Shown here in pieces: positions 19,983-36,793 of a stretch of DNA of 36,838 nt. The translations under genes were made by a program, and so were the position numbers. The notes below the pieces were generated by a model. That model worked only from the letters and a program-made list of their open reading frames with translations. It ran no database searches and was not told the DNA's origin. The stretch's first letter is position 1; every line of letters starts with the position of its first letter. The stretch is from a virus, in IMG/VR virus record IMGVR_UViG_3300001848_000095, positions 1-36,838 of that record; one strand, written 5' to 3'.

Positions 19983-20144
19983 ATGGGACTGCTAGCAAGC
20001 ATCAATAACTGGTCGGGATATGCGTATGGGGCCACCCTGCTGGGTGACCCCATCATCTTGGAAGATGGACGTTACGGATGGGATGACGAATCATTGCCGT
20101 CTGCTGATGTTGAAGCAGACAGCGTTGTGCTGTCACCGTTCTAG
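19983..20144 (+). CDS. Last late gene, small acidic protein (53 aa)
   Basis: ATG 19983 lies one base after the LamG gene stop. It begins MGLLASINNWSGYAYGATLL and ends in an acidic segment, WDDESLPSADVEADSVVLSPF. The stop codon TAG overlaps the stop region of the converging minus-strand gene by four bases, so the two transcription units meet with no intergenic space. No family was recognised. Proximity to the fibre suggests a structural or chaperone role, but this is only inference. Confidence 0.55.
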   Translation: MGLLASINNWSGYAYGATLLGDPIILEDGRYGWDDESLPSADVEADSVVLSPF

Positions 20145-21736: not shown

Positions 21737-22188
21737 GACTGCTTCATATCTGCTGCCAACGGCAGCATGAACGTGTTGTTTGCTAGCATCAGCCAGATCA
21801 CACAGTAGCCGATGATATCTTTCAACGTGTCAATCAATGATTCGTTCTCGGGGTCTACCCCTCGGCGCATCAGATTATCGTAGCGTGCAATCTTATCCCA
21901 CAATCGTACCAGCACCCCTTGCTGTCCGAACTCTAGAATGTTGCCATGACCATAGTCATGCTGTTTACCTGCCAGCAATGTAATCATGTCTGCTCCTTCC
22001 CATTCGATTCCTGCTTCACGAATATCATCCCATGCTGAACGAGCAAGAACAGTATACATGCCTTTGCGAAACAGGTCTTTATATGCGGCATGTTGTCCCA
22101 TTGGAAACTCTAGTTCATGATGCACAATGATACGAGACACTGCCCATTCCCAACTGTTTTCCACATAGTCATGGTATACGGTTCCCAT
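21733..22188 (-). CDS. Nmad1/DUF1599-type protein (nucleotide-modification associated)
   Basis: This 151-residue helical protein has the family signature KQHDYGHGNILEFGQQG, VRLWDKIARYDNLMRRG and ENESLIDTLKDIIGYCVIWL. It matches DUF1599 (nucleotide modification associated domain 1). Members are found in phages with modified DNA and are thought to act on nucleotides or to be all-alpha NTP pyrophosphatase-like. ATG 22188 overlaps the upstream stop (TAATG). With the nearby adenine methyltransferase it hints at DNA or nucleotide modification in this phage. Confidence 0.75.
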   Translation of the reverse strand: MGTVYHDYVENSWEWAVSRIIVHHELEFPMGQHAAYKDLFRKGMYTVLARSAWDDIREAGIEWEGADMITLLAGKQHDYGHGNILEFGQQGVLVRLWDKIARYDNLMRRGVDPENESLIDTLKDIIGYCVIWLMLANNTFMLPLAADMKQS

Positions 22189-22592
22189 TATTCTGTCCTT
22201 TCAAACACTGATCGAAGTTTACTGTAGGCACGGTCACGGATACGCATCACCGACATTTTAGAAGGAGGTTTCTTACCTTCGACCTCACCGATTATCCGTG
22301 CCGTTTGCGCCAATGACATTCCACCCAATACAACACAAGAGATAACAATTTCTTCACGCTCCGTCAAATTTGCTTCATCAAGTTTTTGTTGAAAACCTGC
22401 CCAATCCTGTTCACGTTCCTGTTCAGTCATCGGCACATCCTGCAAAGGTGCCGCCTCCATCAACGCCTGATACTCGTCCCTGGGGGGACGATGCGGACTG
22501 TAGAGTTGACTACGACCGCCGTGAACTACAGGATGGAACTCGCCTACAGGGGTTTCAAACCTGTCCTGTTTCGATGCGTACCCAAACTTCAT
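22188..22592 (-). CDS. Sigma-region-4-like helix-turn-helix protein
   Basis: This 134-residue protein ends in LTEREEIVISCVVLGGMSLA then QTARIIGEVEG and MSVMRIRDRAYSKLRSVFER. That layout matches sigma factor region 4: conserved Leu-x-x-Arg-Glu, a Gly-Met-Ser turn, and a recognition helix ending in KLR. There is no region 2, so it is not a complete sigma factor. It could be a transcription regulator or anti-host factor. It is a candidate partner for the dispersed palindrome, though only by elimination. A degenerate palindrome copy lies within it (22382). Confidence 0.6.
   Translation of the reverse strand: MKFGYASKQDRFETPVGEFHPVVHGGRSQLYSPHRPPRDEYQALMEAAPLQDVPMTEQEREQDWAGFQQKLDEANLTEREEIVISCVVLGGMSLAQTARIIGEVEGKKPPSKMSVMRIRDRAYSKLRSVFERTE
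22382..22396. repeat. Dispersed palindrome copy 8 (degenerate)
   Basis: GTTTTTGTTGAAAAC in the sigma-like gene (read as FQQKL). Confidence 0.45.
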
Positions 22593-26419: not shown

Positions 26420-26452
26420 AACCACTCCTTTGTTGTTGTTTGTTTGTTGTGG

Positions 26453-26526
26453 TGTCATCGGTGGGAGTCGAACCCACACTGTACCGAGTTTGAGTCGGTT
26501 GCCTCTGCCAGTTGGACTACGATGAC
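26453..26526 (-). tRNA. tRNA-Leu (anticodon CAA)
   Basis: Read on the minus strand, the sequence folds as a cloverleaf. The acceptor GTCATCG/CGATGAC is 7 bp. D-loop bases AACTGGCAGA are followed by the anticodon arm ACCGA-CTCAAAC-TCGGT, with CAA at the anticodon. The T arm is GTGGG-TTCGACT-CCCAC and the discriminator is A. CCA (26450-26452) is encoded immediately after. The D stem is weak and the variable loop is short for a leucine tRNA, so charging identity is uncertain. The anticodon reads UUG, a very frequent codon in the late genes. Confidence 0.85.
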
Positions 26527-26579: not shown

Positions 26580-27125
26580 TTAACGTGGGGGCCAGTAACC
26601 CTTCGGCATGCCGTCCTTGCCACGACCCGTGCCACCACGGGGCACAGCCTCCTTGAAATGGGGCTGCTTCGTACCTGCTGCTGCACGACGGTTATCCCAC
26701 ACAGCAGTCACCCCGTCACGGGATGCTGCCGTAATAATCCACGACGGCAACGGGCCGTCCTGATCGTTCGGGTTCATCACACGCAACGTGCCACCATCCG
26801 AAACTTCGGTGGTATTACCGAAAGCCTTTTCGACTGCGGCCTGCGCCGACTGCACAGTCGGCTTGGCCTGCTCACGCAGCACACCCGATTCCTCATCATA
26901 CTCGTAGGCGATACCCAACTGGTCAAGCACAGCAGCAGTGGCCGACATGAACAGGTCGGCAGCAGCCTGCGATACTTCACCGACCGATGCGGTCGGAGAC
27001 ACATCGCCCTGCACCCAAGCAGATGCTTCGATGGTGCCATAGTTTCCGTCGCTGATCTTGCGTGAGAACGACACGCTGATCTTGCGGTTTTTGTCAAAAA
27101 CTTCGATGACTTCTTCGTTGTCCAT
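26580..27125 (-). CDS. Possible ssDNA-binding or recombination protein (181 aa)
   Basis: ATG 27125 follows GGGAAAG and gives 181 residues; the long upstream extension is unlikely. The beta-rich segment KISVSFSRKISDGNYGTIEA then SAWVQGDVSP is reminiscent of phage ssDNA-binding-like proteins. The C-terminal tail is basic/Gly-rich and ends GKDGMPKGYWPPR, not an acidic tip. It sits between exonuclease and helicase genes. The functional guess is weak. VFDKN near the start is palindrome copy 27087. Confidence 0.45.
   Translation of the reverse strand: MDNEEVIEVFDKNRKISVSFSRKISDGNYGTIEASAWVQGDVSPTASVGEVSQAAADLFMSATAAVLDQLGIAYEYDEESGVLREQAKPTVQSAQAAVEKAFGNTTEVSDGGTLRVMNPNDQDGPLPSWIITAASRDGVTAVWDNRRAAAGTKQPHFKEAVPRGGTGRGKDGMPKGYWPPR
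27087..27101. repeat. Dispersed palindrome copy 12 (perfect)
   Basis: GTTTTTG-T-CAAAAAC near the start of the ssDNA-binding-like gene (VFDKN). Confidence 0.85.
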
Positions 27126-34389: not shown

Positions 34390-34926
34390 TCACAGACCCT
34401 CGCCGCAAGCGATCACCGCGGCGATCACCTCGGCCACGCTCTTGCCATTCTTCAGAGCGCGCTTATAGAGACGGGCCACATCTTCATCCAACACGTACAC
34501 CTTTTCCTCGTCCTCGTCTTCGGGCTTGTTCATCGTCTGGTAGATAGTGTGGATGCCGCTAGCGTTGGTGGCAGCGAGGGGCTCGACGAAAGCCACCACG
34601 GTAGCCACGATCTCCGCACCGTCTGCCACGTACTTGCCGCGGCTCTTAGCGCACAGAGCAGCCAGCATGGGGGTCTGCTTAACGATGGTGATCGCCTTCG
34701 AGATCGACGGGGCACCCCAGCCCGTAGTCTTAGCGAACGCCTTCTGAGTGTCGAACGCCTTGCCGTCGGCAGTGACAGCCTCGCCGCGCAAGTAGGCGAT
34801 AGTGTGTGCCAACAGGTAGGCAGTGGACTGACCGTTGCCACGACCCATAGCCAGCACACCAGCCCCATGCTGGCCGATCATCGCATCGACAGTAGTGACG
34901 TAATCGAAAGTATTGATGGTGTCCAT
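34390..34926 (-). CDS. First leftward early gene, possible DNA-binding protein (178 aa)
   Basis: ATG 34926 is preceded by AGGAGGG at eight bases and by palindrome copy 34946. It begins MDTINTFDYVTTVDAMIGQH. A helix-turn-helix-like segment AFAKTTGWGAPSISKAITIV (about residues 83-102) has the small-Gly-Trp turn and a polar second helix. The C-terminus is helical and charged. As the first gene of the early operon, flanked by palindrome copies on both sides (34946 upstream, 34359 downstream), it is my best candidate for the regulator of these sites, but the HTH is weak. Confidence 0.55.
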   Translation of the reverse strand: MDTINTFDYVTTVDAMIGQHGAGVLAMGRGNGQSTAYLLAHTIAYLRGEAVTADGKAFDTQKAFAKTTGWGAPSISKAITIVKQTPMLAALCAKSRGKYVADGAEIVATVVAFVEPLAATNASGIHTIYQTMNKPEDEDEEKVYVLDEDVARLYKRALKNGKSVAEVIAAVIACGEGL

Positions 34927-34945
34927 TGTGAACCCCCTCCTAGGG

Positions 34946-35261: not shown

Positions 35262-35285
35262 GCCTACAGGGCTCGGCCGAACGAC

Positions 35286-35305
35286 GATCGAACATACGTT
35301 CGATC
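35286..35305. promoter_or_regulatory. LexA-type box 1 (perfect, 20 bp symmetrical)
   Basis: GATCGAAC-ATAC-GTTCGATC is a perfect inverted repeat containing the Gram-positive SOS consensus CGAAC-N4-GTTCG. It is the best of the cluster. Confidence 0.75.
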
Positions 35306-35344
35306 CTCACGTGAATAGAGAATGGATCGCGCGCGAGGCAAAAC

Positions 35345-35358
35345 CGAACACCTGTTCG
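35345..35358. promoter_or_regulatory. LexA-type box 2
   Basis: CGAAC-ACCT-GTTCG matches the consensus exactly, about 45 bases from box 1 (gap between the matches). Confidence 0.7.
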
Positions 35359-35466
35359 AGCACAAGCGCACAAAGTCCCCGAAATTTCGCTTCTGCCGAT
35401 TCTCCGCACCTAGGCTACCCTCTCGGCCCGATCGTCGATCCTAGGCGATTGGGGATAAATCCGTAG

Positions 35467-35623
35467 TCATCCACAGGGTTATCCACAGAAAAGTTCGACG
35501 CAGAGTGACGATCCACAAGGTTACCCACAAGAAATCCACAATTCACAACAAACCCACAGCCCTGTGGACAAACCCCAAAAGATATCCACAGACACACCCA
35601 CCTTATCCACAGACTTATCCACA
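35467..35623. other. DnaA-box cluster, probable replication origin core
   Basis: Exact TTATCCACA boxes occur at 35479, 35603 and 35615, and an exact TTGTCCACA (actinobacterial form) on the minus strand at 35563-35571. One-mismatch boxes are at 35467, 35521 and 35582, and two-mismatch ones at 35509 and 35532. This is nine boxes in 157 bases. It is next to iterons and an AT-rich stretch and lies at the divergence of the early and late modules. It is consistent with an oriC-like phage origin using host DnaA. Confidence 0.8.
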
Positions 35624-35628
35624 CCCAC

Positions 35629-35644
35629 GTTTCTGCACAAAAAC
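35629..35644. repeat. Dispersed palindrome copy 29
   Basis: GTTTCTG-CA-CAAAAAC between the last DnaA box and LexA-type box 3. Confidence 0.75.
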
Positions 35645-35673
35645 CGAACACACGTACGACGAACACACGTTCG
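35645..35673. promoter_or_regulatory. LexA-type box 3, tandem with a one-mismatch copy
   Basis: CGAAC-ACAC-GTTCG (35660-35673) is exact. CGAAC-ACAC-GTACG (35645-35658), one mismatch, sits one base before it. It lies directly beside the DnaA-box cluster and palindrome copy 35629. Confidence 0.7.
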
Positions 35674-35697
35674 CCCCACACGCCACGAACGCCCCAT

Positions 35698-35711
35698 CGA
35701 ACATATGTTCG
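35698..35711. promoter_or_regulatory. LexA-type box 4
   Basis: CGAAC-ATAT-GTTCG is exact and symmetrical, located between the DnaA boxes and the GCATGAT iterons. Confidence 0.7.
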
Positions 35712-35730
35712 GTCGCCCCGCTGGGCTCGT

Positions 35731-35790
35731 GATGCATGATTATGCATGATGCTGCATGAATATGCATGCATGATGCTGCATGATCATTCA
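35731..35790. repeat. GCATGAT iterons
   Basis: Five overlapping or adjacent copies of GCATGAT/GCATGAA (e.g. ATGCATGAT, GCTGCATGAA, GCATGCATGAT) lie just downstream of the DnaA boxes. Such iterons often bind an initiator. An ATTCATTG near the end may be a degenerate copy. Confidence 0.65.
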
Positions 35791-35879
35791 TTGCGCCCGC
35801 AACTATTGACCATGCAACAAACCATACCCCCCGTATACGGCCCCCCACCCCCCTGAAAAGTTGAATGATTCCTGATGGT

Positions 35880-35960
35880 TCGGTACATTTATGTATATTT
35901 TATGTTTATTTTTTGTAAAAGTTTTAGTTAAGGTTTTTCCAAGTTTTGTAAAAGTGCCTG
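35880..35960. other. AT-rich stretch, candidate DNA-unwinding element
   Basis: Roughly 80 bases are strongly A/T, with TATATTTTATGTTTATTTTT and TTTTGTAAAAG twice. It lies next to the iterons and DnaA boxes, where duplex opening would be expected. Two weak half-copies resembling the dispersed palindrome (TTTTGTAAAAG) are inside it. Confidence 0.5.
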
Positions 35961-36274
35961 CTAGATGAGTGTTTTTGTGGGGTTGTGTGGGTGTTACGGT
36001 TGTTGGTTATGTTTGGGTTTATATGTTTTGTGCCTGTCGGAACGTGAGGTGGAGACAGGTGCTGGTGTTGGTTGAATGTGCTAATTGTGCTGTTTGTTGG
36101 TATGTTTAGCATGTTTGTTTGTTACGTTGTTCGCCCTTCGCTTGCGCTTCGGGCGTGTCTATGTTTGTTCCGCTGATTGTCTTTAGACGTTAGGTTGTTA
36201 CGTTTGTAGCATGTTTTTAGATGGTTGGTTTGTACGCCGTCACTGACGTTTCGGCGTGTCTAAAGGATGGTTTT
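35961..36274. other. Non-coding leader before TerS
   Basis: No convincing gene is present. The stretch is T/G-rich with repeated GTTACGTT-like strings. Two hairpins occur: CGCCC...GGGCG at 36132-36155 and ACGCCG...CGGCGT at 36234-36257. Each is followed directly or nearly so by GTGTCTA. I expect the rightward late promoter somewhere here, but cannot identify its -35/-10. Confidence 0.5.
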
Positions 36275-36793
36275 GTGGATTCGAAGAATAAGGGTGGCCG
36301 ACCTACTCGGGAGGCTGCTGCTTCTAAGGTTCGTGAGTTGAATGCCCGCCAGCGGGCGTATGTGGTGTGGATGGCTACGCCGCCTTCTGAGAGGGAGATT
36401 GGGACTCAGAAGGAGTTGTGTGAGGTGTTGGGGGTTTCTTTTCAGACGATGTGGCGTTGGTCGAAAGACCCTCGGGTTGTTGAGGCTATCAGGTTTTGTG
36501 TGTTGCAGAATGCTGGTACTCCTGATCGTGTTCGGAATATTTTGGATATGGTGTATCAGGTTGCGATGGAGAAGAAGGATGTGAAGTATGCTGAGATTTG
36601 GATGCGTGCTTCTGGTGTGATGGGTCAGTTTGGTCGGTCTGCGGATATTTTGGATGTGGCTGAGGATTTGCAGGATGACGATATTTCGTCGCTTAGTTTG
36701 GACGAGTTGCAGCGTGTGCGAGATTTGGCCCTTCAGGATCGTGCTGAGGCTGTTGCTGTAGAGTTGGCTTCTAGGGGTGTTCAGGGTGCCTGA
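36275..36793 (+). CDS. Terminase small subunit
   Basis: The likely start is GTG 36275, seven bases after AAAGGA, giving 172 residues; ATG 36221 would add 18 residues. The protein has the HTH-like segment TQKELCEVLGVSFQTMWRWS, a helical multimerisation region (NILDMVYQVAMEKKDVKYAE) and an acidic C-terminus (LDVAEDLQDDDISSLSLDEL). It should recognise phage DNA and recruit the TerL nuclease/ATPase, whose start overlaps its stop. It begins the late module to the right of the origin. Confidence 0.75.
   Translation: MDSKNKGGRPTREAAASKVRELNARQRAYVVWMATPPSEREIGTQKELCEVLGVSFQTMWRWSKDPRVVEAIRFCVLQNAGTPDRVRNILDMVYQVAMEKKDVKYAEIWMRASGVMGQFGRSADILDVAEDLQDDDISSLSLDELQRVRDLALQDRAEAVAVELASRGVQGA

Follow-up and report, generated by a model that had tools for sequence, protein, structure and literature searches.

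LexA-type boxes around a putative DnaA-type origin in an uncultured freshwater-type phage

The divergent intergenic region

The virus contig IMGVR_UViG_3300001848_000095, analysed here over its full 36,838 bases and referred to as the window, derives from an uncultured freshwater-type phage. Its large terminase gene is split over the two contig ends (36794–36838 and 1–783) and, by comparison with relatives, lacks about 0.9 kb of the first part of terL, which indicates that the contig represents an almost full genome, interrupted within this gene. A leftward replication operon, with genes for an AEP primase, a DnaB-like helicase, RusA, a PD-(D/E)XK nuclease and a MoxR-type ATPase, is separated by a divergent intergenic gap of 1.17 kb from the rightward terminase and structural genes, which encode terminase, portal, scaffold and head proteins of the tailed-phage type. 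Relatives, retrieved through helicase and capsid queries (the terminase small subunit retrieved none), are podoviruses, and among annotated records the uncultured podovirus MW202803 is the nearest (54% in the portal, 60% in the helicase).

The exact palindrome CGAACNNNNGTTCG (CGAAC-N4-GTTCG) occurs four times in the window, always within this gap between 35289 and 35711 (Table 1). A pattern scan placed the copies at 35289, 35345, 35660 and 35698, as the first-pass annotation had reported, and also recovered its one-mismatch neighbour at 35645, CGAACACACGTACG, which forms a tandem at 15 bp with the box at 35660. The pattern read backwards has no copy in the window. Under third-order Markov models the expectation is 0.12 exact matches for the whole window and 0.014 for the intergenic region, and of 20,000 regions simulated none reached four exact boxes; a chance origin, with about 0.01 boxes expected in the region and four observed, was rejected.

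Table 1. Features in and around the divergent gap of the window
Feature	Position	Strand	Basis or remark
First leftward gene (181 aa), with a possible HTH seen only by eye	34390..34935	-	sequence not conserved among relatives
LexA-type box 1, CGAACATACGTTCG	35289..35302	+	exact pattern match
LexA-type box 2, CGAACACCTGTTCG	35345..35358	+	exact pattern match
DnaA-box cluster, putative DnaA-type origin	35465..35626		sequence, repeats, box scan
Variant box CGAACACACGTACG, CGAAC-N4-GTACG, one mismatch	35645..35658	+	pattern scan
LexA-type box 3, CGAACACACGTTCG	35660..35673	+	exact pattern match
LexA-type box 4, CGAACATATGTTCG, perfect palindrome	35698..35711	+	exact pattern match
ATGCATGAT/ATGCTGCAT repeats adjoining the array	35730..35790		repeat search
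Block GTATACGGCCCCCCACCCCC..ATGATTCCTGATGGTTCGGTACATTT	35833..35894	+	alignment; shared with relatives that lack LexA boxes
Terminase small subunit, first rightward gene	36221..36793	+	PHROG 2538; relatives

The boxes fall into two groups (35289 and 35345; 35645, 35660 and 35698) with a cluster of DnaA boxes between them. Three TTATCCACA boxes (35479, 35603 and 35615) and near matches are found there within about 160 bp of intergenic DNA, together with an inverted box at 35563 (TTGTCCACA, also written TGTGGACAA) and several ATCCACA repeats. Judged from the sequence, the earlier designation of this segment as a putative origin is reasonable, given the DnaA boxes and ATCCACA repeats lying between the two box groups; similar segments were aligned in the relatives L253, L042 and MW202803.

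Between the nearest boxes and the genes on either side lie about 350 bp (to the start codon of the first leftward gene) and about 510 bp (to the terminase start), and a sigma-70 promoter scan located no promoter. The product of the first leftward gene has no significant Pfam match; this gene could be the first under LexA control. The ATGCATGAT/ATGCTGCAT repeats are absent from the relatives examined, and the conserved block beyond them is possibly a packaging site or a late promoter. Elsewhere in the window, a 134-aa protein (22188–22592, minus strand) that is kept in relatives gives a weak match to sigma-70 region 4 (E 0.008) and may be a late-transcription factor.

Comparison with lexA promoters and with related phages

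In Bacillus and its phage GIL01, host LexA binds CGAAC(n)4GTTCG (PMC4551915), the palindrome present in the window as four exact copies and one variant. The regions upstream of lexA were sampled in the GTDB class containing an Acidimicrobiales MAG (32 loci), where exact boxes are found at 29 loci, in a total of 53 boxes as against 0.01 in shuffled sequence. The inner bases of these boxes follow the form R..Y in 49 of the 53, GTACG is among the commonest one-mismatch half-sites, and three of the loci carry 15-bp tandems. Exact boxes are also present in 19 of the 30 lexA upstream regions from the class of Cryobacterium, with close pairs at 16 bp, and the 15-bp spacing also occurs in the lexA promoters of a Propionibacterium and of an Actinomycetales genome.

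The boxes of the phage share these details. In the family of the window the inner bases are R..Y in 19 of 20 boxes, all five GTACG variants are of identical form, the half-site recurring in the relatives G001 and G002 as it does upstream of bacterial lexA genes, and the tandem spacing is 15 bp; inner bases, variant half-site and tandem thus all match what lies upstream of lexA. The lexA promoters of Actinomycetota resemble the window in their exact boxes and GTACG variant, and some of them in the 15-bp tandem, but differ from it in being promoters of a bacterial gene without a DnaA cluster. The window boxes are very probably LexA operators, and we infer with some force from their sequence that the LexA of the host would bind them. 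The original identification as LexA boxes is well supported: the boxes match those of bacterial lexA promoters and are conserved in phages both related and unrelated to this one.

The search among related phages that had been proposed gave a divided answer. Boxes are present in the same gap in G001 (seven perfect and three variant), G002 (three and one), L253 (five perfect) and L042 (one perfect), whereas G003, L029 and MW202803 have none there. The 58-bp block at 35285–35342, which contains the box at 35289, is 95% identical to G001 in a local alignment, the flank GCACAAGCGCACAA of the box at 35345 is kept, in inverted form, in G001 and G002, and the group at 35645–35715 aligns in G001 and has partial counterparts in G002 and L253. 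The position of the boxes is thus kept across relatives while their number and sequence vary, so that they behave like a layer of control under selection that can nevertheless be dispensed with; LexA control appears dispensable in the family because three members lack boxes in the gap.

A different palindrome, TTAGG-N4-CCTAA, occurs in the pre-terminase gap of G001, G002, G003 (L032), L029, L037 and MW202803, where it occupies the location of the LexA boxes and, in G001 and G002, directly adjoins one. We take it to resemble the DtxR/IdeR sites of Actinobacteria.

Box arrays in other phages and the probable host

Box pairs no more than 30 bases apart were found in more than 119 stretches of IMG/VR, a lower bound, compared with 10 for GTTCG-N4-CGAAC, a control palindrome of the same composition. 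Tandems at 15 bp gave 68 viral matches and 58 in GTDB, the latter from 257 billion bases. The two sets differ in kind: the inner bases are R..Y in 130 of 136 viral tandem boxes as against 39 of 116 in GTDB, and 15 of the 68 viral tandems lie within long ORFs as against 48 of the 58 bacterial ones. The 15-bp tandem was accordingly rejected as a trait of bacteria in general: the GTDB matches mostly lie in long ORFs and lack R..Y inner bases, the exception being a few lexA promoters of Actinomycetota.

In the viral loci that were fetched, TTATCCACA occurs at 0.353 per kb within 400 bp of arrays and at 0.028 per kb elsewhere, scrambled controls being near zero; when only non-coding DNA is counted, the densities are 0.61 and 0.056 per kb (about 11-fold). 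A TTATCCACA box lies within 400 bp in only 15 of 149 viral arrays, and 80 of the 149 overlap ORFs of 90 aa or more, although some of these ORFs are probably spurious. By protein comparison, the loci that combine an array with DnaA boxes belong to about eight lineages (the family of the window, L062/L278, L067/L110/L137, L124/L146/L288, L147/L275, L074, L125 and L274), some of which are joined by a few single-gene links. In L062, which is unrelated to the window, a repeat of 43–44 bp brings three LexA boxes into alternation with five DnaA boxes. At L067:12860–14480, LexA boxes, DnaA boxes and TGTGAC-N4-GTCACA palindromes, presumably CRP/GlxR-like, are interleaved in repeated modules before small genes.

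Among cultured phages, the Gordonia phages Skysand (box steps of 16 and 20 bp) and GTE5 (16 and 21 bp, partly with one-mismatch boxes) resemble the window in that a gap between divergent genes carries LexA-type boxes; they infect an actinobacterium, but are unrelated phages with no TTRTCCACA boxes nearby. No description of the function of their arrays was found in open-access papers. At the right genome end of the Mycobacterium phage Redno2 (L298:3005–3087), non-coding DNA contains three CGCACACAYGTTCG boxes at an exact spacing of 20 bp, together with a fourth site that nearly matches. No exact box was present within the 20 kb examined of the freshwater Actinomycetia phage DSL-LC01.

For the window, an actinobacterial host is suggested by the boxes, by a weak match of the lysin to an Actinomycetia phage and by the cultured phages with similar arrays. 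Alignment of the major capsid protein revealed no provirus among 84,980 GTDB genomes, and no convincing WhiB marker was found in relatives. The tRNA-Leu was rejected as a guide to the host, its matches being too broad. This tRNA-Leu(CAA) gene (26450–26526, minus strand) has only 77 bases and no long variable arm; G001, G002, L057 and L058 carry it too.

Possible roles of the array

The clustering of LexA sites around an apparent replication start suggests that the phage probably waits for host DNA damage before it multiplies. The reading that we favour, and regard as fairly probable, is that an array of host-LexA operators flanks a DnaA-type phage origin and that the early/origin region is repressed until the SOS response. 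In an undamaged host, LexA dimers on the boxes would restrain early transcription, initiation or both; upon damage, RecA would trigger LexA cleavage, lifting the block and allowing replication and the lytic cycle to proceed. Scans of 42 ORFs against Pfam and PHROG, the latter listing the 25 most frequent PHROGs, and further scans of the larger ORFs found no LexA, S24 peptidase, integrase or ParA/B, and the earlier remark that no phage repressor is visible holds. For a phage with neither integrase nor recognisable repressor, host LexA could serve as a damage-sensing brake, either during infection or in an episomal pause.

The proposal of repression by LexA and release by SOS draws on two analogous cases, GIL01 and the CtrA-controlled 'lytic deferment' phages. 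In GIL01, a Bacillus tectivirus that does not integrate into the chromosome, the use of host LexA has been shown and SOS induction proved, the boxes being dinBox1/dinBox1b of the P1 promoter (PMC4551915). Like the window, it has the 14-bp consensus CGAAC-N4-GTTCG in multiple close boxes, one of them imperfect; its boxes, however, lie at one promoter, just downstream of the transcription start, whereas those of the window flank a DnaA cluster. The two phages are unrelated, and the window was rejected as a tectivirus, since it has the terminase and portal of a tailed phage, whereas tectiviruses have genomes of about 15 kb and contain a membrane. In the CtrA phages of Alphaproteobacteria, arrays of sites for a host regulator, gathered in a single large intergenic region, do function as binding sites and have arisen in several phage lineages (PMC9437464). 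They share with the window the density of such sites in one large intergenic region and the absence of any need for a dedicated phage repressor, but their regulator, CtrA, responds to the cell cycle and LexA to DNA damage, and binding and regulation have been demonstrated there.

Three other explanations deserve consideration. LexA bound beside or between DnaA boxes might block DnaA assembly or unwinding, in which case SOS would license initiation directly, without a promoter. The flanking position of the window boxes, the alternating LexA and DnaA boxes of L062 and the enrichment of DnaA boxes near viral arrays are all consistent with such a direct gate, yet the box groups of the window stand outside the DnaA cluster and not within it and most viral arrays have no such cluster, and we consider this rather unlikely as the principal mode of action. 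An extension of the same idea, that several unrelated and probably actinobacterial phages have convergently acquired SOS-licensed origins at which LexA, on tandem operators within or around a DnaA-box cluster, directly gates initiation while the unintegrated genome awaits host damage, is put forward only tentatively.

Alternatively, the array might titrate host LexA and thereby derepress the SOS regulon (repair, recombination and nucleotide supply) as phage copies rise. One relative carries up to ten boxes, above the need of a typical promoter, which would suit a decoy; this role is nevertheless very improbable, because some relatives carry a single box or lack them and because the boxes are confined to the control region beside the origin instead of being spread over the genome. 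Since plasmid iterons typically form tandem arrays next to DnaA boxes, and since an HTH protein may be the product of the first leftward gene, the boxes could be iterons or operators of a phage-encoded protein with a coincidental likeness to LexA sites. We judge this very improbable as well, because the motif, its inner bases, the GTACG variant and the 15-bp spacing are those found upstream of bacterial lexA genes, quirks that would not be expected of an unrelated iteron; the same motif is, moreover, present in unrelated phages of different gene content.

Phages without integrase or repressor are usually regarded as strictly lytic. If repression by host LexA until SOS is correct, such phages could defer replication and sense host DNA damage, which would bear on the way in which UV and other stresses govern phage activity in freshwater bacteria. 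GIL01 is a known case of a phage using LexA; no paper on LexA boxes at phage origins was found in the open-access literature, and their recurrence as arrays around the DnaA-type origins of several unrelated phages seems undescribed in the open-access papers searched. The array can be detected by sequence alone and recurs across lineages, and the cultured Gordonia phages with similar arrays make laboratory testing feasible.

A second, dispersed palindrome of 15–16 bp, GTTTTTG-N-CAAAAAC, has about 25 copies in the window, 20 of them after position 20000 (for example at 27087, 31086, 32553, 32970, 33608 and 34946), and the exact core TTTTTG-N-CAAAAA occurs 10 times as against 0.002 expected. The copies are mostly in the early half, some directly upstream of a ribosome-binding site and some within genes. 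Relatives have palindromes of the same layout, TTTATG-N-CATAAA in G003 (10 copies) and TTTCTG-N-CAGAAA in L057/L058 (four), as if all belonged to one operator family whose specificity changed between phages; the stoperators of cluster A mycobacteriophages offer a comparison.
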